From: a virus | Reading direction: 5' to 3' (one strand) | Length of the DNA stretch: 32,398 nucleotides | IMG/VR virus record: IMGVR_UViG_3300010151_000070 | Location: 1-32,398 of that record | Shown: one piece after another, positions 2,034-32,398 of the stretch | Layout of the letters: every line of letters starts with the position of its first letter | How positions within the stretch are numbered: the first letter of the stretch is position 1 | Notes under the pieces: generated by a model | The model's input: the letters and a program-made list of their open reading frames with translations, nothing else | What the model was told of the DNA's origin: nothing | Databases searched by the model: none | Translations under genes and position numbers: made by a program

Positions 2034-2897
2034 CTATAGTATTGACGAAACTGACCAGCGGGCCAGTTTGGCTCGGCCATCAGGTCCGTCTTTAACTTGC
2101 AAGTTAAGTCTGAATGGGTCTGCCTCTCTGGCTGCCTTGACGCGCACGTAAACGTCGTTCGTCCAGCCCGGTGTCTTGACGGTGGCCGTGCGATTGAACA
2201 TCGCTATGAGCCCGTCGACCGCCCCATATAAAGCACCCGAACCACGCAGGGCATGGCCGGGTGACCCAACATCAGAAGATGAGGGCTTTCTGAGATGGTG
2301 GATCAGGACGACTGTACTGCCGGTCTTGTCTCTAATGCGCCTGACATTATTGGCGACCGCTATCATCTGACCACTATCGTTCTCTTCGCCCGTATGAGCG
2401 TTCCGCATTGGGTCTATGATTATAACAGCAGGCTTATCTATACCACCTAAGTCACTCATAAATTTAGCCACTGAGTCATCGTCAAAGAGGTCAATCCCAC
2501 CAGAGAAGTTAAAGAACAACGGCAACCCGCGAAGCTCCTGCTCCTTAATGCCCTTGCTTGTGGCCATCGCTCTGACTCTGGCATTGATGTTAGGTGCTCC
2601 ATCTTCGAGCATGACGCAGGCCACTGAGCGCTGCTTGCCATTGGTACTGAAGACCTCGCTCCCAAAGCATGGCGTACCAGACGCCACCGACAAGGCAACC
2701 TCAAGGCCAGCCCAAGACTTTGTGGTCTTGGGCTCACCACCCAAAACAACAAACGATCCATCGGCCACAAGCTGAGACACGCTCCACTCGACGGGTCCAG
2801 GCATGGTGCTGAACATCTTATCGCTGGTGATAAAAGGTCCATACTTCATGACATCCATATAGTCGCCAACAGATACCACATTACTGACCGCCCTCAT
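2034..2897 (-). CDS. RepA-like AAA ATPase (AAA_25), putative replicative helicase
   Basis: A 287-residue RecA-fold ATPase. The Walker A loop is GGEPKTTKS (53-61), the Walker B strand is AVIIID (157-162), and a downstream IHHLRK segment (199-204) matches the sensor-type His pair seen in RepA/AAA_25 proteins. Such proteins act as hexameric helicases or ATPases in phage and plasmid replication. It is the only replication enzyme I can identify, so the phage presumably borrows the host polymerase. The ATG at 2897 follows AGGAGTCGAG and overlaps the end of the sigma gene by 17 bases. Helicase activity is inferred from the family. Confidence 0.8.
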   Translation of the reverse strand: MRAVSNVVSVGDYMDVMKYGPFITSDKMFSTMPGPVEWSVSQLVADGSFVVLGGEPKTTKSWAGLEVALSVASGTPCFGSEVFSTNGKQRSVACVMLEDGAPNINARVRAMATSKGIKEQELRGLPLFFNFSGGIDLFDDDSVAKFMSDLGGIDKPAVIIIDPMRNAHTGEENDSGQMIAVANNVRRIRDKTGSTVVLIHHLRKPSSSDVGSPGHALRGSGALYGAVDGLIAMFNRTATVKTPGWTNDVYVRVKAAREADPFRLNLQVKDGPDGRAKLARWSVSSIL

Positions 2898-3540
2898 CTC
2901 GACTCCTCATTCTGTTCCATAGCCGCCAAACGAATCTCAGCTCATCAATAACCCGGTCATCTAGTTGACCAATCCGTTGCTTCGAGATTCCAATCTCTCT
3001 GCCGGTTTCAGGCTGGTTGAGATGTCTCTCGTAGACCAAACGAAAAATAACATAGGTCCGAGGCGTAAGATAAGTCTTGGCGAGCCGATATAAACGCGAT
3101 CTATCGAGTCTATCGACAATCGTATCCTCTTCTGCCCCATCAGTATTAGTTGCACTTCCATCATGTCCCTCGGTCTGCAATCGATGTTGCTTCTTGGCGG
3201 TGACCATCTCTCTGTTGGCACCGGAGCGTACATAGTAATGTAGGTAGCTTGCCAGCCTCGTGGTGTGTCGTTCCAATTTATAGTTACCAATGCCTTGTAT
3301 CATCGACATGATACATCGATTCATGATGTCGGTCTTGTCACCGCAATAGTAGTTTGGAACCGTGAACCGCTTGAGATACCAGGCCGCAACCCAGACGTTG
3401 TCTTCGATCAGCTTGTTCCTGGCTTTGACGTCGCCATCTTGTGCCAGTCTGATCAACCGCCTCTCTTCGTCTTGAGAGAGGCGGTTGTTATTAGTGATCA
3501 TCTCAGGCGGGATCAGACCCCACTCAGAACGGCGATGCAT
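2881..3540 (-). CDS. RNA polymerase sigma-70-family factor
   Basis: About 219 residues with a region-2-like N-terminal half (LIEDNVWVAAWYL, then a segment like those preceding the -10 binding helix) and a C-terminal region-4 helix-turn-helix, TPRTYVIFRLVYERHL followed by TGREIGISKQRIGQL. It probably redirects host RNA polymerase to phage promoters, most simply those of the structural operon. The start is uncertain: ATG 3540 gives only a 17-base overlap with the SSB gene, but ATG 3501 or a GTG at 3579 are possible and none has a strong ribosome site. The gene lies between SSB and the RepA-like ATPase, so it would be made early. Confidence 0.8.
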   Translation of the reverse strand: MHRRSEWGLIPPEMITNNNRLSQDEERRLIRLAQDGDVKARNKLIEDNVWVAAWYLKRFTVPNYYCGDKTDIMNRCIMSMIQGIGNYKLERHTTRLASYLHYYVRSGANREMVTAKKQHRLQTEGHDGSATNTDGAEEDTIVDRLDRSRLYRLAKTYLTPRTYVIFRLVYERHLNQPETGREIGISKQRIGQLDDRVIDELRFVWRLWNRMRSRDEGGQ

Positions 3541-3874
3541 CGCTCTGTTCTGACTTCGGCTTACCGAGGAAGGTGACACGCTCTGCGATCACCTTCGTCT
3601 TGCGACGTGGGTTGCCTTCCTTGTCCTCCCACCTGTCGACGCTCAGTCGGCCCTCGATGCCAACCGATGAGCCCTTGCCGGTGTACTCGGCCATCAGCTC
3701 CGCTTGCTTGCCAAAGGCCGTCAGGTCAATGAAGATGGCTTCATCAGTACCCTTCTTGCGTCCGTCAAGCGCGATGGCATTGTTCACCACCGGCATGTTG
3801 TCTTTGCCGACCTGCTTCAGGTCGTTGTCTTGGGCTAGTCGCCCCACTAATACTACTTTGTTTATGGTGCCCAT
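3524..3874 (-). CDS. ssb: Single-stranded DNA-binding protein
   Basis: A 116-residue OB-fold protein that begins MGTINKVVLVGRLAQD, the usual SSB start. It has the central segment IFIDLTAFGKQAE, then the strand VGIEGRLSVDRWED. The tail ends S-D-A-S-P-F, a shortened form of the acidic DDDIPF tip that contacts partner proteins. It coats single strands made in replication and recombination. The gene sits between the Rad52-type and sigma genes. The ATG at 3874 follows AAGGAGTAAGCAGCC. Confidence 0.93.
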   Translation of the reverse strand: MGTINKVVLVGRLAQDNDLKQVGKDNMPVVNNAIALDGRKKGTDEAIFIDLTAFGKQAELMAEYTGKGSSVGIEGRLSVDRWEDKEGNPRRKTKVIAERVTFLGKPKSEQSDASPF

Positions 3875-4963: not shown

Positions 4964-5289
4964 TTCGACACCTCCTTCTCGTACTGGTCTGCGTCCCACG
5001 AGGCGTAGATGTCTTCCTGTAGACAGAAGACGTATTGGCCTGCCGAACTCGCCTTATCGAGCGCGTTCTTTAGCACTAGGCAGTGTGTGCCTGGTGCAAT
5101 GTTTGCGTCGGGGCCGCTGTTCACCACCTCATGGACGAGCGCGTTCTCGTACTGAGTGACGCCTTCGAGCGTCGCGATGCGCTGCCCCAGGTCTGCTGGC
5201 AGTAGACCTCTTAGCAGCACCTTGTCGCCGTGTAGTTTTATAGACTTCGCACTAAAGTCTATAGACTGCATATAATAGTTAACGCTCAT
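4960..5289 (-). CDS. GroES-like co-chaperonin (putative)
   Basis: I start this 109-residue protein at ATG 5289, nine bases after AGAGGT; a longer form from 5334 has no site and overlaps the preceding gene. The pattern fits the cpn10 fold: IKLHGDKVLLRGLLP at residues 16-30 corresponds to the P-x-D-R-V-L-V strand, a variable stretch stands where the mobile loop would be, then ALVHEVVNSGP (V-x-x-V-G-P-like turn), and the ending YVFCLQEDIYASW resembles the E-x-D-I-L-A end of GroES. Phage co-chaperonins such as T4 gp31 adapt the host GroEL to fold the coat protein. Assignment is by pattern only. Confidence 0.5.
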   Translation of the reverse strand: MSVNYYMQSIDFSAKSIKLHGDKVLLRGLLPADLGQRIATLEGVTQYENALVHEVVNSGPDANIAPGTHCLVLKNALDKASSAGQYVFCLQEDIYASWDADQYEKEVSK

Positions 5290-5536
5290 TTGTGATGACC
5301 TCTTTCTTTTTTGGTGGTGGTTTTGACAGCCCAAGTGACTGCCTTAGAAAAGTCTCTAGCCTCGCCTTAGTCAGCTTACTGGCTTTCGACAGCTCCTCTA
5401 AAGGGAGCTGTCGTTCATGGTACTGCGAGATCATCCAGCCAACTGTCGGGTCGGCTGGTTGGTAGCAATCGTGGCAGTGCGAATCACCACCTATTGCGAA
5501 TGTCTCTGTCTTGCACTTTGGGCATACGCTAAACAT
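5279..5536 (-). CDS. Zinc-ribbon plus helix-turn-helix protein (putative regulator)
   Basis: An 85-residue protein with two CxxC pairs, Cys5/Cys8 and Cys21/Cys24, forming a likely zinc ribbon. Then comes PLEELSKASKLTKARLETFL (45-64), which has the spacing of a helix-turn-helix, and a basic Lys/Pro-rich tail. The ATG at 5536 follows GGAGGATTAAG. It is a reasonable candidate for a transcription regulator that could act at the repeated operator sites of this genome, but there is no direct evidence; a zinc-binding adaptor is an alternative. Confidence 0.6.
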   Translation of the reverse strand: MFSVCPKCKTETFAIGGDSHCHDCYQPADPTVGWMISQYHERQLPLEELSKASKLTKARLETFLRQSLGLSKPPPKKKEVITNER

Positions 5537-5836: not shown

Positions 5837-6172
5837 TTATGTACGCCATTTCAGGCCGAGTTTAATCCAGTCGGTCAACCACATGGTGACCATGGCTTTC
5901 TTTCTATCATCTCTAGTGACAGCCACCGGGATGCGACTGGTGTCATCATAGTCCCTCTCGGCGTCTGTGGCTTGTTCTAAAGCCTTCTTAGGGTTCGTCC
6001 TAGCACCGACTTTAGCTTCGACCCAGAAGTCGCTTAGAACGACGTCTGGTGCGTCTGAGCCTGATCGGGACTGGAAGCCCCTCTTGGCTTCCGCGAACCC
6101 CGCCTCTCGTAAGATCTTGGCAAGCTCGCGCTCCCATCCTGCGCCCTTGTCTCTGGATCTCTTACCACTCAT
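5837..6172 (-). CDS. PDDEXK-type nuclease, Holliday-junction-resolvase-like
   Basis: A 111-residue protein with the layout of small archaeal/phage Hjc-type nucleases: basic start, a Glu in GWERELAKILREAGF (12-26), an Asp in SDAPDVVLSD (39-48), and the catalytic E-x-K in FWVEAKVG (about 49-56), followed by a helix and the strand RIPVAVTRDD. Such enzymes cut branched DNA during recombination or packaging. The ATG at 6172 overlaps the previous stop (ATGA). Whether it resolves junctions or is a general nuclease cannot be told from sequence alone. Confidence 0.75.
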   Translation of the reverse strand: MSGKRSRDKGAGWERELAKILREAGFAEAKRGFQSRSGSDAPDVVLSDFWVEAKVGARTNPKKALEQATDAERDYDDTSRIPVAVTRDDRKKAMVTMWLTDWIKLGLKWRT

Positions 6173-6393
6173 TCGGCCGCCCCTCCCAGGCTAGTGTCTT
6201 GACCTATAAATAGAGACACTGACATCGTTCCGGTGGAGGTCTCCACCACAAGTTCAAGCGCCTGGGTCTCGTCTTCGACCCACTTTACTACGCTCATTGG
6301 CACCGCCACTCTCTCGATGCGGCCACGGTCGACATCATACACCTGATGCGTAAGGGCTATCGACTTTATATTATGGACGTTGAGGCTTAACAT
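6169..6393 (-). CDS. Hypothetical beta-rich protein, 74 aa
   Basis: A 74-residue protein starting at ATG 6393 after AGGAGTAAGCA. It alternates hydrophobic and charged residues in short strands (IALTHQVYDV, ALELVVETSTGTMSVSLFIG) and is probably an all-beta fold. No domain is recognised. It overlaps the upstream gene by 23 bases and is coupled to the nuclease gene downstream. Confidence 0.7.
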   Translation of the reverse strand: MLSLNVHNIKSIALTHQVYDVDRGRIERVAVPMSVVKWVEDETQALELVVETSTGTMSVSLFIGQDTSLGGAAE

Positions 6394-6802
6394 TGCTTAC
6401 TCCTGAAGACAGCCACCGCAACCATAGCGTGGTTTTGGTCCTGTTGGTTGTTTCTTTATCATCCAAAACCTGAGAGGGTGATCCGATGTGTTCAAGAAAA
6501 GCGCCCCACCCTTGCTCGGTCACAAAAATGGGGCACGAGGATTCAGCGAGAATCTCTTCGGCCCTATTAAAATACTCCTTATAGACCTTGCCGTACCCAC
6601 CCCGACATGCCTCTTTAAGAGGTGTGAACTCAATCGATTCGATGATGGAATGCATGAGGCTGGGTGCTCCGTAGCGGTCAATGAATACGACCGCGATCTT
6701 GCAGACAGCCTCGTAGGTATCGCTATCGCAATGCCGAACAAGTCCGTTGTCAACATCCTCGCCTTCTCTCATGAGCTTCCTTGCGGTGATCTCTTTGATC
6801 AT
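6371..6802 (-). CDS. Hypothetical protein, 143 aa; first gene of the recombination/replication operon
   Basis: I start this at ATG 6802, preceded by AAGGAGGGCGAT; an upstream ATG at 6826 has no ribosome site. The product is about 143 residues, soluble, with several Cys. No known family is recognised. It is the first gene after the operator-bearing gap at 6803-6943 and so probably the first gene transcribed in unit 1; its role could be in early takeover or control. A weak -35/-10-like pair (TTGATT, 17 bases, TTGTAT) lies just upstream. Confidence 0.75.
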   Translation of the reverse strand: MIKEITARKLMREGEDVDNGLVRHCDSDTYEAVCKIAVVFIDRYGAPSLMHSIIESIEFTPLKEACRGGYGKVYKEYFNRAEEILAESSCPIFVTEQGWGAFLEHIGSPSQVLDDKETTNRTKTTLWLRWLSSGVSNVKPQRP

Positions 6803-6880
6803 ATCGCCCTCCTTGCCGTGATACAAGCGAAGACCATACCAAAAATCAAGTGGCTGATTTTGTTTGCTTTATTGTCGTGG

Positions 6881-6941
6881 TGCGTAAGAGGTTACGCAGA
6901 AAATTAGCGTAAACCATTTCGCAGTGCGTAATTATTTACGC
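6881..6941. promoter_or_regulatory. Triple operator: three GCGTAA-N4-TTACGC inverted repeats
   Basis: Three inverted repeats with a four-base spacer occur at 6882-6897 (GCGTAA/TTACGC), 6907-6922 (GCGTAA/TTTCGC, one mismatch) and 6926-6941 (GCGTAA/TTACGC). Their centres are 25 and 19 bp apart. They fill the 141-bp gap upstream of the 6802 gene. The layout resembles a cooperative repressor operator such as lambda OR. The same arrangement recurs at 31290-31349. Confidence 0.8.
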
Positions 6942-6943
6942 GC

Positions 6944-7885
6944 TCACTTTGCTATATAGAATACGGGCGTGGCCGCTAAACCTTCCGACCCAACGACCGC
7001 AGGACCGGACCGCTTTAAGGCCATAGGTTGCTTGCCGAAAACTTCCTCAATCGCCTTGGCCATACTGGCAGCTTCCTTCTTCATTTCTGGCGATGGGAGG
7101 ACTTTGCTTCTTTCGCCTGCCGCCCTTAGATACCTTGGTGTTGCTGGAAGGTTGCCTACAAATACTCCTCCTGGCTTCAAGGAGTCACGAATCTGGACGA
7201 GAGTTCTCTTCAGCATGGCTGGTGTGTCTTGTGTGTTTATGACGTTCGATCCAAACACGACGTCGTAGTGGCTTGGCTTGAGAGCGTCTGGGTCATGTAC
7301 GCCCGGAACCCACCCGCCTTTTGGCTTGGCAAAGTCATGAGCCACCACGTTATAGCCTTCCTTTCTTAGGGCTATCGTATGCTGGCCACGGCCTGCGCCA
7401 AAGTCAAGGATCTTTAGATTGTCCTTCGGTTTAAAGAGACCCTTGAATGCGTTGACCGTTGCGCTGGTCTTCCATGGCCTCGCCGTCTTGCCAGCCGCAG
7501 CGATCTGCTCCGCAGTGAACAGATCCTCGGCCGCCTTTGCGGCGGCCAGCTCTTTGGCCTCGCGCTCTATGGGTTTCTTAACTGCTTTCTTGGTGGCCTT
7601 TTTGGTTGCCTGCTTCAGTACCTTGGCTCCGAGTTTGCCTACTCCTCCACCAAATACAAATGGACTTTCGCTCGTCACGTTGTAGCCACGTGGCTTTGGA
7701 GGATCTATCAGATCTAGCATCTGCATCAATCGCTCGGGGTTGACACCTTGAGGCGTCGTGATGTCCATGGCTTTTGCTTGAAAGCTTCGAGCTTCCTCCT
7801 CTGCCTTCGCTTTCTTATAAGCGGCCAGTTCTGCCTCGCTCATACTAGCGATATAATCAGCCTCGCTGAATCCACTATACGCCAT
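6944..7885 (-). CDS. SAM-dependent class I methyltransferase with a non-enzymatic N-terminal region
   Basis: A 313-residue protein. The C-terminal half is a class I methyltransferase: motif I ILDFGAGRGQHT (159-170), the acidic end of strand 2 in VVAHDFAKP, then SHYDVVFGSNVI and a strand-5 segment SLKPGGVFVGNL. The first 150 residues are different: acidic N terminus, a glycine-rich FGGGVGKLG, and a Lys/Ala-rich repeat KKATKKAVKK reminiscent of histone H1 tails. It is the last gene of the late unit, coupled to the endolysin (overlap 11 bases), so it may be packaged or act late. The substrate is unknown. Confidence 0.8.
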   Translation of the reverse strand: MAYSGFSEADYIASMSEAELAAYKKAKAEEEARSFQAKAMDITTPQGVNPERLMQMLDLIDPPKPRGYNVTSESPFVFGGGVGKLGAKVLKQATKKATKKAVKKPIEREAKELAAAKAAEDLFTAEQIAAAGKTARPWKTSATVNAFKGLFKPKDNLKILDFGAGRGQHTIALRKEGYNVVAHDFAKPKGGWVPGVHDPDALKPSHYDVVFGSNVINTQDTPAMLKRTLVQIRDSLKPGGVFVGNLPATPRYLRAAGERSKVLPSPEMKKEAASMAKAIEEVFGKQPMALKRSGPAVVGSEGLAATPVFYIAK

Positions 7886-24685: not shown

Positions 24686-26463
24686 TGTGGTACTCCTTGA
24701 GGTTGTTGCTGTTGAGCTGCAACGAGCTGTTGATCATAGTATTGTTTCAACTGCCAAAGCATGCTCTTTAGATTGGGGTCTTGCTGAGTGTCGATGGATC
24801 GTCCAATAACAGATGATGCCAGTTGCGGGTTGACCTGTGCTGGTTGTATGAGGGTTCCTGCCGCTGCTGATTGTATCATCTGATTAATGAGTTCTATTTC
24901 TCTTGCCTGACCTTCAGTGTATTCAAGGCCAGTCTCTGATCGCTCTGCAACGGTTGCTGGATCTTCAAGTCCGGCTTGTGCTCGCTCAACAATATCCTTA
25001 GCCTTCTGAGCATGATAACGAGACATACCTGTTCTCGGCTCAAGGCGAACACCGACGCCATCAATGTCTGCGCCCACAAAAGGAACGACCGTCATGGATC
25101 TGTCCTCGCCAACTATGCGTATCAATCTCGGCATGGAGTAAAACTGCCTTACAAGGTGAAGTGTTATATTCCATAAATTTAATAAGAACTTCTCAATGTG
25201 TCTAGCCGTGCCAGCATTCTTCATAGAATCCAACTGACTAAGATACGCAATCTGTTTGGCAGACGTTCCTGACTTAGCGCTCTCTGCTCCAGTAAGAATC
25301 TCATTGAGTCCAGCTATGTCATAAAGCCTGCGCTCAAGACGGTCTCTATCTCGAAACAAAATCTCATTGATCTTCGGTGGCTCTAGCCACCGAATGGTTT
25401 GCGACTTCTGGACGTCATCCACTTTGATCATGTGGTTGTCGTCCTCCCACGTTTCGATGACATTGCTTGGTGCCAGGAGCTTGACTGCTCCAGTATCTCG
25501 CCTGAGCTTAACCAGCACGGACTCGATCTCATTTATCTGTCTTTGAATAGGCACCGCATCGTTCATCCATGTATCGCCATAAACAGTGCCTCTGATGTAG
25601 CCAACCTTAAAAAGGCTGAGAGGAAGGAACGATACGGTCTTGTCGCTCTCAGGGTTTTCGATGGACTTGAACACATAAGGATAGTCCATTTTGCTTACTA
25701 CATTGCCTCCGACGATGAGAGCATACAGGCCCTTTTTCAGCCTAACATCTGGCCTGTACCATATCTCATAAACAGGAATGCCCTTCCTGGTCTCTGAGTC
25801 GCCTATGGTGTACTCTTCCTCTGCAACGTCTGTTGTTCTGACCTTGCCTTCCTTGAGAAGTGCTCTGGCCTCATGCTCGTTTATGTACCGTCTAAATATA
25901 ACCCACCCCGCATCATCAGGGTTCTCTGTCGGGTCAATATAGAAGTCAAAGATAGTAACGAGATCCCAGCGGATCTCGTCATTATCTGGGTCATAATACG
26001 CCTTGATGCCCCCGAGTCCGTGAGCGCATGCAGACTTCAAGATGTCAAACATCTTTTGGTCAACGCGGTTCTCTGACTCTATGAACTCTATAAGGGACGA
26101 TGCTGTCTCAGCAGCTTGTATGTCGCCAGGTTCTGCACTGTTAGGAAACGCTGTAACTGATGGACGGTCCTGAAGCAGGCGTTGACACCAGGTCAGCACG
26201 AGGTTTCTGATTAGGTTGTGAGATACTTGAGGGATGTCTGAGTTCCATGGCACGTCCTCTATTGTGCCTGACCTCCTGTCAAGATCCCTGAATTGATCGC
26301 CGCTGACGTGAAGTTCGTTACGCTCGGCAAGCCTGGTATACTTGGCTGCCGCCTTCTCACCTTTGTCCTTAAGCTCATTAAACAGGTCAAGGATTGTCAG
26401 CGATGTGCCGTCTTCATTCTTGGCGATCTGATAGTCTTTGCCGTCTGCGTTGCTGATGCTCAT
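24682..26463 (-). CDS. Portal protein (P22-type)
   Basis: A 593-residue portal, the twelve-subunit ring at the head vertex that DNA passes through. It is in the usual range for P22-like portals. Supporting features are the N-terminal helical domain, IPQVSHNLIRNLVLTWCQRL (about 77-96), the wing-type strand region WDLVTIFDFYIDPTENPDDA, the segment AVPIQRQINEIESVLVKLRR, then LNEILTGAESAKSGTSAKQI (common in portals of this class), and a Gln-rich end. It follows the terminase genes with three small genes in between. The ATG at 26463 overlaps the preceding stop. Confidence 0.85.
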   Translation of the reverse strand: MSISNADGKDYQIAKNEDGTSLTILDLFNELKDKGEKAAAKYTRLAERNELHVSGDQFRDLDRRSGTIEDVPWNSDIPQVSHNLIRNLVLTWCQRLLQDRPSVTAFPNSAEPGDIQAAETASSLIEFIESENRVDQKMFDILKSACAHGLGGIKAYYDPDNDEIRWDLVTIFDFYIDPTENPDDAGWVIFRRYINEHEARALLKEGKVRTTDVAEEEYTIGDSETRKGIPVYEIWYRPDVRLKKGLYALIVGGNVVSKMDYPYVFKSIENPESDKTVSFLPLSLFKVGYIRGTVYGDTWMNDAVPIQRQINEIESVLVKLRRDTGAVKLLAPSNVIETWEDDNHMIKVDDVQKSQTIRWLEPPKINEILFRDRDRLERRLYDIAGLNEILTGAESAKSGTSAKQIAYLSQLDSMKNAGTARHIEKFLLNLWNITLHLVRQFYSMPRLIRIVGEDRSMTVVPFVGADIDGVGVRLEPRTGMSRYHAQKAKDIVERAQAGLEDPATVAERSETGLEYTEGQAREIELINQMIQSAAAGTLIQPAQVNPQLASSVIGRSIDTQQDPNLKSMLWQLKQYYDQQLVAAQQQQPQGVPQ

Positions 26464-26777
26464 CCTTCAAGAACCTTTGAAAGGTCTGTGTGATACGGAT
26501 GCTCGGAATCCCAATTGTCTAGCAGCTCTTGGAGTTTGCCCTTCAAGTCTGAATCATCGTCAACGTCTGGGGTTGATTCGTCATAAGACTCATCATCATC
26601 ATCGGTGGCACCCTTAGCGCAAGCACCCTTAGCGCAAGCACCCTTAGCGCAAGCACCCTTAGCGCAAGCACCCTTACTGGTATCCTTCGTTATCTGTATC
26701 TCTGCCGCCATGCTATGGCTGGCCAAGGACTTTGCCAGATCTTCAACCTGGTCTGATATCTCTCTAGGTAACTTCAT
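26460..26777 (-). CDS. Small acidic protein with KGACA repeats, 105 aa
   Basis: A 105-residue protein with a helical N terminus (ISDQVEDLAKSLASHSM), four tandem KGACA units plus a partial one (residues about 35-57), then a strongly acidic segment (DDDDESYDES, and DVDDDSD) and a charged C-terminal helix. The repeats come from a 15-bp DNA repeat and give four cysteines at even spacing. It sits between terminase and portal and may be a head or packaging accessory. The start at 26777 follows AGGAACAACA. Confidence 0.6.
   Translation of the reverse strand: MKLPREISDQVEDLAKSLASHSMAAEIQITKDTSKGACAKGACAKGACAKGACAKGATDDDDESYDESTPDVDDDSDLKGKLQELLDNWDSEHPYHTDLSKVLEG
26608..26676. repeat. 15-bp tandem repeat, 4.6 copies
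   Basis: A 15-base unit (plus strand gcacccttagcgcaa) is repeated exactly at 26608, 26623, 26638 and 26653, with a nine-base fifth partial copy to 26676. It encodes the KGACA repeats. Because the unit is five codons, slippage changes protein length without shifting frame. Confidence 0.95.
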
Positions 26778-29205: not shown

Positions 29206-29648
29206 GTATGCAAACCTCCTACCTATTTGAGAATTTCAACGGGGGTGCGAATTGGTAATCGACGTAATGGTTAGAGCGTGGACCTTGGACCTTTAAGCCT
29301 TGGGGCTCGGCTCCAGAGGGGGTGTCAATTATTTGACGCGTCATTTTTTTGACGTCAATTTCTTGGCGCGTCAATATTTTGACGCCATTCTTCTGACGTG
29401 TCAAATGTTTGACGTCATATATCTGACATGCTTCGTTCAGGCTTCGGCTTGTGGTCTTGGTCGGTGGTGGTTTGCTGGCGGGTTGTGGTGGTGGTGGATG
29501 TGGGAGGCGGCACCATCCATCCCTGCATCCATCCCTGCCATCATCATCATCCAAACCTTGCCACCTCCACCCATCCATAACACCATGACGCACTGCGTCA
29601 TTCCATGGCACAAAAAAAGGAGGGCACCCTATGGCACCCTCCTTTTTT
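29206..29648. other. Non-coding control region upstream of the late genes
   Basis: A 443-bp gap holds, from left to right, a possible promoter zone next to the small terminase gene (a TTGACA hexamer on the minus strand at 29328-29323, with no matching -10), the iteron array at 29335-29430, a purine/pyrimidine-biased stretch with CATCC repeats at about 29513-29550, a palindrome ATGACGCA/TGCGTCAT at 29585-29601, and the terminator. Minus-strand frames that cross it run through the repeats and the terminator and look like shadows. Confidence 0.7.
29335..29430. repeat. Iteron array A: 30-bp period, GACGYGTCA/GACGTCA units
   Basis: GACG-type cores begin at 29335, 29351, 29365, 29381, 29395, 29411 and 29425, with strictly alternating spacing of 16 and 14 bp, so the true period is 30 bp. 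Long units are GACGYGTCA followed by a T-rich spacer, short units GACGTCA or GACGCCA with a spacer. Each core is itself near-palindromic. The same unit types, in the same direction, make up array B at 31393-31490. They are likely protein-binding sites for replication or late transcription control. Confidence 0.85.
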
Positions 29649-29650
29649 TT
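29612..29650 (-). terminator. Rho-independent terminator (can act in both directions)
   Basis: A stem of GGAGGG/CCCTCC extended by seven A/T pairs (29612-29624 with 29637-29650) and a 12-base loop is followed on either strand by a T-run. It begins just after the stop codon of the 43-aa gene (29649-29651) and closes the GP88 operon. Confidence 0.9.
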
Positions 29651-29780: not shown

Positions 29781-30046
29781 CTCTTCACCTCATGGTTGTG
29801 GTTATAGCCCATTTCTTGGCCGGTTAAACCGTCGTCATTCAAAATGATCTCACGGTCACCCATTTTCCTGGTCCAAACTAATTCACGCAGCCACGTTTGA
29901 CCGTGTGATTCTATCTCGTCCGGCCCAGCTGAGAGCGCCTCGCGGTCACCCGGTCTTAGGTCGGTCAAGACCCCGTCCTCACCTCCTGCAACCACGTGGC
30001 CCGCATCCGTCAATTGCCTCATAAGTATTTTCTGTTTTTTTATCAT
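29777..30046 (-). CDS. Hypothetical protein, 89 aa
   Basis: An 89-residue protein with a basic N terminus (MIKKQKILMRQLTDAG) and a mixed charged body (DLRPGDREALSAGPDEI), ending in a His/Asn-rich tail (NHNHEVKR). The start at 30046 follows GGAAGGTGAGACC and overlaps the previous stop (ATGA). No family is recognised. Confidence 0.65.
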   Translation of the reverse strand: MIKKQKILMRQLTDAGHVVAGGEDGVLTDLRPGDREALSAGPDEIESHGQTWLRELVWTRKMGDREIILNDDGLTGQEMGYNHNHEVKR

Positions 30047-30240
30047 GGTCTCACCTTCCTTTTCTCTTTAATCCATTTAGCCATGCGACCAATGGCTTTA
30101 GAACTCAATTTGTACCGAGACCCATAATGGTCTCGCCCGCTCATTTCTTCGGCCCTTCTTAGGGCCTTAATTTCTTCTTCATGTTCTTGGCACCACGCCT
30201 CATGCGCTTGATACCAAGTTAGATCAATCAGTTTTTTCAT
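30043..30240 (-). CDS. Hypothetical basic helical protein, 65 aa
   Basis: I start at ATG 30240 (MKKLIDLTWYQAHEAW), preceded by GGAGGTAGCACA; an upstream start at 30294 would run through a hairpin. Two helices with many Lys/Arg/Glu and a basic C terminus (KWIKEKRKVRP) suggest nucleic-acid or protein binding. It is a second candidate for the protein that binds the operator repeats, since it lies in the operon controlled by them, but no known HTH is evident. Confidence 0.6.
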   Translation of the reverse strand: MKKLIDLTWYQAHEAWCQEHEEEIKALRRAEEMSGRDHYGSRYKLSSKAIGRMAKWIKEKRKVRP

Positions 30241-30362: not shown

Positions 30363-31097
30363 CTAATGCATCCCATAAGAGATGTTGGCGACGTCAACGT
30401 TCCAGCATGCGTCGCAGTCAACACCCCCATTCTTTGAACCATGGCAGACACCGCCTTGCTTCGGTGCTGGGCATTCATAGCCCACCGCCGGGCTCTCTTT
30501 GTGCACCGTGCTTGTGGGCAACCAGCGCCTAATGGAGGGTGCTTTACCATCCACCATGTGAGCGCTTAGCCTTATGCATAGGTTTGACGGTATACCGGTC
30601 CCGCCGCCATTGCGTGACCATTCATCGTAGCCCGCTGAAGACATGGCCATGCTATCAAGCCAGCCCCTAACGATGGTATACTCGCGCGTAGGCAACCAAT
30701 GCTTAACACGCGGCGTCAACCGCGCCACTTCGATGATAGCCCTTAAGTGGCTAATGTTTTGCAGGTCGCCGCTATCGTGCCAACGAAAATACCTGCCTTC
30801 TTTTTTGTCTTCTCTCTTTGAGATGGTTTCCACCATCGCAGCGACCCACGTCCCATCAACAAGCCCATCCACCATGGCTTGGTAACGACGCTCTAACGCT
30901 TGCTGGACTACGCCAAAAGCGTACCGACCCTTGCAAGCGTAGCAGCTTGCACAGGTCGAGTTAGGCACCTCGCGCAAGCGCTCACCGGTTTTGCACCGAT
31001 ATGCGCTTATGCTCCACCCAAACCCAGGCATTTTAGAGGGCTTTGACAGCCCCCCCGTTATCTCGCTCAGCACTTTTAGTGTCCGTTTTTTTTGCAT
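30363..31097 (-). CDS. GP88-family phage protein
   Basis: A 244-residue protein that I recognise as similar to the phage GP88 (gene product 88) family. It opens with the pattern LSKPSKMPGFGWSISAYRC, followed by CASCYACKGRY (49-59) and, near the C terminus, CPAPKQGGVCHGSKNGGVDC. The cysteines could bind a metal or Fe-S cluster. The middle includes GRYFRWHDSGDLQ and VKHWLPTREYTIV. The biochemical role of the family is not established as far as I know. It leads its own operon, under the operator triplet and behind a terminator-like leader. The ATG at 31097 follows AGAGGTGAGAC. Confidence 0.8.
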   Translation of the reverse strand: MQKKRTLKVLSEITGGLSKPSKMPGFGWSISAYRCKTGERLREVPNSTCASCYACKGRYAFGVVQQALERRYQAMVDGLVDGTWVAAMVETISKREDKKEGRYFRWHDSGDLQNISHLRAIIEVARLTPRVKHWLPTREYTIVRGWLDSMAMSSAGYDEWSRNGGGTGIPSNLCIRLSAHMVDGKAPSIRRWLPTSTVHKESPAVGYECPAPKQGGVCHGSKNGGVDCDACWNVDVANISYGMH

Positions 31098-31110
31098 GTC
31101 TCACCTCTAT

Positions 31111-31146
31111 AAAAAAAACCCAGCCACCTTGGAAGGTGGCTGGGTT
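31111..31146 (-). terminator. Rho-independent terminator in the GP88 leader
   Basis: A 12-bp stem (AACCCAGCCACC with its complement, 31117-31128 and 31135-31146) with a six-base loop is followed on the minus strand by eight T. It lies only 14 bases from the start codon of the GP88 gene, ahead of its ribosome site, so any transcript from upstream must read past it. It also stops readthrough from the lipoprotein gene. Confidence 0.88.
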
Positions 31147-31184
31147 GGTTTACTCTTGTGCCCTTTTTATCCGCGAAGGCCGAC

Positions 31185-31200
31185 AAGAACCCAGGTTCTT
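31185..31200 (-). promoter_or_regulatory. Upstream hairpin with possible anti-terminator pairing
   Basis: An inverted repeat, AAGAACC/GGTTCTT with a two-base centre, lies about 40 bases upstream of the terminator. Its segment CTGGGTT (minus strand, 31194-31188) is exactly complementary to AACCCAG in the first arm of the terminator (31146-31140). Pairing of the two would prevent the terminator stem, the logic of an attenuator. Seven base pairs is modest, so this is a proposal. Confidence 0.45.
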
Positions 31201-31289
31201 TCGGTGCGTCATCCTTTAGCACGCTATACATTAAGCATTATCTATGCCAGCATTTAAAGCATTAGATATCAAGCACTTACATCATCGGT

Positions 31290-31349
31290 GTGTAAATCTT
31301 TGCGCGTTTTTTTGCGTAATTTTTTGCGCGGTTGCGTAAACCTTTGCGC
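31290..31349. promoter_or_regulatory. Triple operator, second copy
   Basis: Three sites of the form GYGTAA-N4-TTGCGC lie at 31290-31305, 31314-31329 and 31334-31349, with centres 24 and 20 bp apart. They match the hexamers and four-base spacers of the sites at 6881-6941, where centres are 25 and 19 bp apart. They sit about 190 bp upstream of the GP88 gene. I could not identify a convincing -35/-10 pair nearby. Confidence 0.8.
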
Positions 31350-31392
31350 GGTTAGTTAGTGGCCGATCACTAACTGACTCCGTCAAACTTTT

Positions 31393-31490
31393 GGCGTCAG
31401 GGTTTTGGCGTGTCAAACTTTTGACGTCAGATTTTTGACGTGTCAATATTTTGACGTGTCAGATTTTTGACGCGTCAGATTTTTGACGCC
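31393..31490. repeat. Iteron array B: 14/16-bp units
   Basis: Cores begin at 31393, 31407, 31423, 31437, 31453, 31469 and 31485, with spacings 14, 16, 14, 16, 16, 16. Short units are GRCGTCA plus spacer, long units GRCGYGTCA plus spacer, each followed by a T-rich tail on the plus strand. The unit types and orientation equal those of array A. The run ends at a GC-rich segment. Together they resemble replication iterons or a multi-site operator. Confidence 0.85.
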
Positions 31491-31495
31491 TCGCG

Positions 31496-31522
31496 CCCGC
31501 GCCCGCCCGCCCGCGCCCGCCC
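31496..31522 (-). other. G-quadruplex motif (six GGG tracts)
   Basis: On the minus strand six GGG tracts are separated by loops of 1 or 3 bases (31496-31498, 31502-31504, 31506-31508, 31510-31512, 31516-31518, 31520-31522). Such short loops predict a very stable quadruplex in the transcribed-strand sense RNA or in the minus DNA strand. It lies between the iterons and the lipoprotein stop. Confidence 0.7.
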
Positions 31523-31550
31523 GCGCGTGCTGCCTGCGTGGTGGCCTTGG

Positions 31551-31598
31551 TGTAGACGCAACTTTATGTAGACGCAACTTTATGTAGACGCAACTTTA
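31551..31598. repeat. Three perfect 16-bp tandem repeats at the lipoprotein stop codon
   Basis: The unit tgtagacgcaacttta occurs at 31551-31566, 31567-31582 and 31583-31598 with no mismatch. The last copy supplies the stop codon of the MopE/VWA lipoprotein gene (TAA, 31598-31596). It adds to the repeat-rich region that extends down to 31290. Confidence 0.95.
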
Positions 31599-32398
31599 GT
31601 AACACTCATCTGCATGCAGCCCACTCATATCTTGTATCATCATAATAGACACAGACAGATACTTAACTGTACCACCTGTCTCGGCGGCGATGCTGGTGTA
31701 GCTATAGATTGCTGTTGGGCTAGTGAACACCCAGGTTACGATGCCACTGTCTGCCAGCTCCTCGGCTGCATCTATCTCTGTGACTGGTGGTGCTGCGAAG
31801 CTCTGGCCATACTCATCACTGAAGAGCACGATGTATTTGCTGGCACCATCACGCCACCCGATGCTGATGGCATCGGTGGCGATATCATAGAGCACATCAT
31901 ACGATGGTTCCGATCCACCATTGTTTGCAGATATGCCGCTCAAGAGCGGCATGACGTCCACCGCTGGCGCTACATCAGAGATCACCACAGACCCTGGCGA
32001 TGCGCCATCAGGGATTATCACCAGCCCGAACTGATGGTCTTCGGTGGTGACAAAGTTACTCATGAACTGCTCGGCCGTATCAATGGTAGCTCCAAGTAGC
32101 GAGCCCATTGACCCAGAGGCATCGATCACAAACACAGTATCTGTCATGTCTGTGATGCCATCATCGATCAGCCCGTTGCAGTCGTTGTCAATACCGTCGC
32201 ACGTTTCATGCGTCGGAAGCTTTTGGTTGTGGCATTGCTCGGCACCGTCGATGCATAAGATCAACCCGGCGTGGCAATCGCCACCACTCACTAGGTCATT
32301 CGGGTCACCGTCATAGCAGTAGCCCATCTGACCAAGCTCATCGGCCACGCCATCGCAATCGTTGTCGATGCCATCGCAGACCTCGTCCTCCGGGCCGA
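31596..32398 (-). CDS. MopE/VWA lipoprotein, C-terminal part (starts at GTG 508 across the junction)
   Basis: This is the 3' part of the 395-residue lipoprotein; it continues from the opposite end of the window. It contains the second MopE-type motif, CDGIDNDCDG, which repeats part of the left-end sequence, the third motif CDGIDNDCNG at about residue 195, and then a von Willebrand factor A domain. The metal-site motif D-x-S-x-S is present as IDASGSM (Asp221), with further likely ligands in NNGGSEPSYD and VLFSDEYG. VWA domains bind other proteins through a metal ion. Related Cys/Asp-rich plus VWA proteins are familiar from myxobacterial surfaces; finding one in a phage genome is unusual. The start at 32348 suggested by the linear end is an artefact. 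Confidence 0.85.
   Translation of the reverse strand, partial: GPEDEVCDGIDNDCDGVADELGQMGYCYDGDPNDLVSGGDCHAGLILCIDGAEQCHNQKLPTHETCDGIDNDCNGLIDDGITDMTDTVFVIDASGSMGSLLGATIDTAEQFMSNFVTTEDHQFGLVIIPDGASPGSVVISDVAPAVDVMPLLSGISANNGGSEPSYDVLYDIATDAISIGWRDGASKYIVLFSDEYGQSFAAPPVTEIDAAEELADSGIVTWVFTSPTAIYSYTSIAAETGGTVKYLSVSIMMIQDMSGLHADECY
32276..32398. repeat. Terminal direct repeat, right copy (circular overlap)
   Basis: Identical to bases 1-123. It marks the circular closure of the genome, so these bases should be counted once. Confidence 0.95.

Follow-up and report, generated by a model that had tools for sequence, protein, structure and literature searches.

Two triplets of a GCGTAA-N4-TTRCGC dyad as a predicted operator pair at the heads of two phage transcription units

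Two triplets of the dyad GCGTAA-N4-TTRCGC lie far apart in a phage genome, raising the question of whether a single regulator reads both of them and what it would do there. The window, meaning the whole stretch of DNA analysed, is IMG/VR virus record IMGVR_UViG_3300010151_000070 (32,398 nucleotides). The triplets are a real, non-random operator pair, the function of which is predicted from sequence.

The six sites and their statistics

Six copies of the dyad, each at most one base off, were found in two triplets at 6882-6941 and 31290-31349. The original prediction had recognised both triplets and set the left end of the first at 6881, one base early. The sites are as follows.

Triplet A, site 1, 6882-6897: GCGTAA-GAGG-TTACGC
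Triplet A, site 2, 6907-6922: GCGTAA-ACCA-TTTCGC, one base off
Triplet A, site 3, 6926-6941: GCGTAA-TTAT-TTACGC
Triplet B, site 1, 31290-31305: GTGTAA-ATCT-TTGCGC, one base off
Triplet B, site 2, 31314-31329: GCGTAA-TTTT-TTGCGC
Triplet B, site 3, 31334-31349: GCGTAA-ACCT-TTGCGC

The start-to-start spacings were 25/19 bp in triplet A and 24/20 bp in triplet B, as predicted; both sum to 44, and the outer centres are 44 bp apart in both. The three sites of triplet B share an asymmetry, with TTGCGC on the right and TAA on the left. When up to two mismatches were allowed, 14 strand-matches were counted against 3.3 expected, and none of 100 shuffles reached as many. When a matrix of the six sites was run over the circular genome, they ranked 1 to 6 with 22.7 to 17.7 bits, and the seventh match scored 9.98 bits, 7.7 bits lower, showing that there are no equally good sites elsewhere. 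A matrix trained on either triplet alone placed the three sites of the other triplet next, which supports the earlier proposal that one regulator may serve both. Any three similar 6-N4-6 dyads within 70 bp were also sought without fixing the motif, with 200 dinucleotide shuffles as the control; the 6882 triplet was recovered along with two arrays of another motif, and no shuffle gave any cluster. The 31290 triplet, in which one site has two arm mismatches, was missed by this strict search. By a second motif-agnostic score it reached 32/36 (0/60 shuffles), and the 6882 triplet reached 35/36 (0/60 and 0/500 shuffles).

Genome layout and surroundings of the triplets

The first and last 123 bases of the record are identical terminal repeats, which makes a circular or circularly permuted genome most likely; the complete phage genome then measures 32,275 bp. 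All assigned genes are carried on the minus strand. Assignments from PHROGs, Pfam and NCBIfam included a large terminase, portal, major head protein and endolysin; a RusA-like resolvase, Rad52, SSB, a DnaB-like ATPase and a RecE-like exonuclease for replication and recombination; and a sigma-70 family factor, a GP88 protein and a MopE/VWA protein spanning the record ends. Unit limits were drawn from orientation, gaps and terminators, giving the units and genes below.

U1, minus strand, 31097 to a terminator at about 29612-29650: short GP88 unit
U2, minus strand, 29205 via terminase, head, tail and endolysin to 6944: late unit
U3, minus strand, 6802 via RusA, Rad52, SSB, sigma, DnaB and RecE, across position 1, to 31596: replication, recombination and sigma unit
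30363-31097, minus strand: GP88-family protein (PF17338), first gene of U1
6371-6802, minus strand: first gene of U3, headed by triplet A
2881-3579, minus strand: sigma-70 family factor in the replication unit (TIGR02937, 50 bits; cut-off 42.9)

The product of 6371-6802 had no convincing family match and no relative in the viral contigs. The gene across the record ends (1-583 plus 31596-32398) encodes MopE-type metal-binding motifs and a VWA domain, an unusual cargo for a small phage, and has a relative with 54% identity in G001. A 15-bp tandem repeat (GCACCCTTAGCGCAA) occupies 26593-26682 within the open reading frame 26460-26777. Rfam and tRNA scans of the genome gave no matches, and neither did a megablast of the genome against phage GenBank.

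Six intergenic gaps in the gene list exceed 60 bp, and two of them hold the triplets (6804-6943 for A and 31098-31595 for B) at the heads of U3 and U1, so that each triplet does stand upstream of a separate unit, as had been claimed. Triplet A ends 79 bp before the start codon of 6371-6802, and triplet B ends 192 bp before that of 30363-31097. The inner ends of the triplets are 7,808 bp (7.8 kb) apart the short way round the circle, bracketing U3. U1 and U3, each headed by one triplet, are probably early units. When a divergent gene was looked for at each triplet, no plausible one was found, so no adjacent repressor gene was recognised. A simple sigma-70 scan of the minus strand gave no promoter at either triplet, which weakens repression by steric block and makes an activator-like position equally possible.

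The late unit U2 has no triplet; it has an array of a second dyad instead, a further copy of which adjoins triplet B.

31381-31488: CGTCAA-N4-TTGACG dyad array adjoining triplet B, period 14-16 bp
29322-29430: second CGTCAA-N4-TTGACG array, upstream of the gene preceding the large terminase in the late unit, period 14-16 bp
31112-31151, minus strand: strong intrinsic terminator of the GP88 leader, past triplet B and ahead of the gene

A similar CGTCAA array precedes the small-terminase-like gene of G001 (L018:10776-10850). The CGTCAA unit was present as a double copy in 10 stretches of viral contigs (L030-L039), and in L038 it directly precedes a gene that matches HTH_31 weakly. The idea that GP88 proteins accompany CGTCAA arrays elsewhere was rejected; PF17338 matched 1 of 22 records, this record alone, and the early unit of the closest relative, G001, carries DUF7227, not GP88. 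In the GP88 leader (31098-31225, minus strand), an upstream CUGGGUU could pair with the AACCCAG arm of the terminator, an attenuator-like arrangement. The non-coding stretch 31546-31609 holds three direct repeats of a TGTAGACGCAACTTTA-like unit with a 16-bp period.

A YTAAAGG box was found upstream of the small-terminase-like gene (29280-29296 here) in 9 of 12 genomes, namely this phage and the 11 relatives first found; in the remaining three the sequence is CCTAAAG with T or C next. In several genomes the box is followed by an AT-rich box, and in some by TATTATATAA. The YTAAAGG box, which may be a late promoter for the phage sigma factor, was absent from both triplets.

The site form and multi-dyad regions in other genomes

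When viral contigs were scanned for a close pair of the sites, only two contigs were found (L041 and L040). The first, together with L061, belongs to record G016 (IMGVR_UViG_3300017634_000004), a temperate phage with an integrase. It encodes a CI-like repressor at 6932-7648 on the minus strand (HTH_3, 34.6 bits, cut-off 23; S24, 25.0 bits, cut-off 23.3). One pair of sites, at 7675 and 7699 (7675-7714, 24 bp apart), lies between the repressor gene and a small divergent gene (7728, plus strand). Another, at 6282 and 6310 (6282-6325, 28 bp apart), lies beyond the opposite end of the repressor gene, upstream of the leftward gene 5968-6240 (minus strand). When the window's matrix was applied to G016, these four sites ranked 1 to 4 in 4.5 kb, with 21.1 to 16.3 bits, and the next match scored 12.0 bits. 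The arrangement clearly resembles the OR/OL layout of lambdoid phages, a predicted OL/OR-like immunity region, and by sequence it ties the site form to a CI-like repressor in that phage. That a CI-like repressor gene is flanked by such sites on either side strengthens the lambda-like layout that had been proposed for the window and that our data support. No relative of the window proteins searched was found in the L041 stretch. A motif this short may have converged, which could account for the likeness of the sites in the two phages. The second contig, L040, has two identical sites, and no repressor was recognised beside them in its list of open reading frames.

Related records numbered 21 in all (55-70% identity), 11 of them returned by the terminase search (64-70%) and the other 10 by a profile search. 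The GCGTAA-N4-TTRCGC cluster was absent from all 21, and the idea that the triplet sequence is conserved in terminase-related phages was rejected on that count; with up to two mismatches, the 11 first relatives showed scattered single sites and no cluster. Where modules were mapped in relatives, the replication and structural modules diverge from each other; here both have the same direction. Genes like those of U1 and U3 form one early unit in G001. From these two comparisons, the early genes appear to have been split in this phage, with one triplet on the inverted part and one on the rest.

The early control regions of ten relatives were then scored for any triple dyad, with the motif left free and with G006 omitted because G006 and G010 have near-identical control regions. 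Three ATGACA-N4-TGTCAT-like dyads were found in G001 (33/36, spacing 33 and 34, 0/500 shuffles) and three TGACA/TGTCA dyads in G010 (32/36, 0/500 shuffles). G009 and L052 had two copies each, not beyond shuffles by the triple score; G011 was borderline (1/60 shuffles); and G003, G008, L051, L054 and L059 were negative. Predicted multi-dyad early operators, varying in sequence, thus recur in part of the family and not in all of it.

Candidate binders and explanations of the triplets

The claim that the genome has no lysogeny gene holds for the tested families. No match above cut-off was obtained with the HTH_3, S24 and integrase (PF00589) models in this genome or in 11 related records; sub-cut-off HTH_3 matches occurred in two relatives, one of them inside a sigma-like gene. 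The phage of L041, which served as the positive control for the CI-like (HTH_3 plus S24) search, matched. Two small proteins had been named as candidate binders, and they fared differently.

5279-5536, minus strand: zinc-ribbon and three-helix protein, with relatives in 2 of the 11 first-found records (G011 and G007)

The predicted model of this protein (mean pLDDT 69.6) has a beta hairpin and helices at residues 32-41, 46-53 and 57-67, with pLDDT of about 80. A fold search with the model gave no match with E up to 0.001 in PDB and BFVD (best Z 2.6), and comparison with the sequences of solved structures gave a best E of 0.0066 over 11 residues. On this model of moderate confidence, it is plausible as the best candidate regulator. 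Its relatives occur in phages lacking the triplet, so that either the candidate is weakened or its specificity has drifted. The other candidate, the 65-aa protein at 30043-30240, was rejected as the binder on the evidence obtained; its single-sequence model has three helices, and it had no family or fold match. Several relatives carry a small HTH_17/MerR-like gene between Rad52 and a gene of the 4960 type, above the Pfam cut-off in G003, G009 and G011, below it in G008 and recognised by eye in L052. In this phage and in G001 another small protein occupies that slot, and the HTH_17/MerR-like regulator is therefore absent here. No such operator was described among the papers listed by literature searches for the motif, as judged by titles and abstract openings.

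The explanation that we favour, and to which we give about an even chance of being right, is that a single phage-encoded repressor, a dimeric helix-turn-helix protein, shuts off both units through the two triplets, its paired tripartite operators. Triplet A would govern the promoter of U3 (6802 through position 1 to 31596) and triplet B that of U1 (31097 to about 29650). Transcription of both units by host RNA polymerase would begin on entry; the repressor, made from U1 or U3, would accumulate and fill the three neighbouring 16-bp sites, probably aided by contacts between adjacent dimers. Filled triplets would switch U1 and U3 off together, and the phage sigma factor would meanwhile turn on the late unit U2. 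Binding by a dimer is suggested by the dyad symmetry of the sites and cooperativity by their spacing; repression is proposed because early genes must be readable without a phage protein, and a phage origin of the binder because both triplets serve phage units only. The sites, their uniqueness and position, the sigma factor and the absence of the tested lysogeny families are the observed part of this account, and the cross-trained matrix, the intergenic, unit-heading position, the G016 sites and the triple dyads of G001 and G010 support it. The counterpoints are that no repressor gene was recognised, that 21 of 21 relatives have no cluster of the motif, and that 8 of 10 relatives have no clear triple dyad (two of these having a pair).

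Instead of a resident repressor, the sites could be operators kept from a temperate ancestor whose repressor was lost, bound only by a prophage repressor (superinfection immunity). A source on D29 (PMC5712189) describes that phage as a deletion derivative keeping the L5 stoperators, and both the equal site form beside the CI-like repressor of G016 and the failure of the HTH_3, S24 and integrase models to match this genome or the 11 related records fit such a history. However, the tested family as a whole is without lysogeny genes, giving no sign of a recent loss, and six near-perfect sites should decay without a binder, making this reading quite unlikely. Also quite improbable is an activator role, in which the triplets would lie upstream of two middle promoters and a phage protein bound there would turn on both units. 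The distances of 79 and 192 bp to the start codons and the lack of a minus-strand sigma-70 promoter over the triplets in the simple scan would suit an activator, but replication and sigma genes lie in these units and would need reading first, and the activator could be supplied only by the virion or by U1 and U3 themselves.

Three kinds of repeats are packed in the non-coding stretch 31290-31609, as would be expected if the sites were iterons bound by a replication initiator at an origin in the 31290-31600 region. Triplet A has no such repeat-rich surroundings, several kinds of repeat clustering at 31290-31609 only; neither triplet marks a turn in the cumulative GC skew, which keeps a single direction; and the scanned proteins included no known initiator. 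An origin is accordingly very unlikely. The phage might also exploit sites of a host regulator. Exact pairs of the form do exist in bacterial genomes, where a scan for site pairs gave nine hits, six of them Streptomyces clusters, one a tandem duplication and two others, the set as a whole being uninformative; one Streptomyces cluster directly precedes a LacI-like start, read by eye. However, most of the Streptomyces sites share a fixed centre absent from the window's sites and come from other organisms, and we regard the use of host-regulator sites as highly improbable.

The favoured repressor explanation can be extended to the family, although we offer this tentatively and consider it rather unlikely. 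A phage family with no recognised CI or integrase would run its early genes through lambda-like multi-dyad operators that vary in sequence (TTACGC here, TGTCAY half-sites in some relatives) and are recognised by a novel type of regulator, for instance the small zinc-ribbon and three-helix protein; the operator set would have been duplicated when the early unit was split and part of it inverted. If one small protein binds both triplets, a lambda-style paired switch would exist in phages without the usual switch genes, and it would tell whether tripartite operators are a plain early shut-off in virulent phages or remnants of lysogeny. Six sites, two promoters and few early proteins are at hand as test material.

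Comparison with known switches

As at lambda OL and OR, three similar dyads are grouped at each of two distant places in the window, and each group precedes its own, probably early, unit. Lambda operators are spaced by about 20-25 bp, similar to the triplets here. Lambda is described as carrying its operators in two groups of three, separated by about 2.3 kb (PMC5880393), and as having 'two tripartite operator sites' (PMC6550527). Unlike in lambda, cI and cro were not recognised and the sites have no adjoining repressor gene; both units run in the same direction, the sets are 7.8 kb apart and the site sequence is another one. Two sets of three related dyad sites were thus found, and a CI-like gene (HTH_3 plus S24), a repressor beside an operator set and an integrase (PF00589) were not, so that the layout is lambda-like and the repressor gene and its position set it apart from the lambda switch itself.

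The CI-like region of G016 has an equal site sequence, with sites that flank the repressor gene at 24 and 28 bp spacing; unlike the window, G016 has two sites per set, an integrase and an S24 repressor. A lytic phage that has no repressor can still retain repressor sites, as described for the stoperators of D29 and L5 (PMC5712189). Those number about 24, have a non-palindromic consensus and are spread genome-wide, in contrast to the two triplets here. Set beside these systems, the triplets represent a familiar type of switch in an unusual context.
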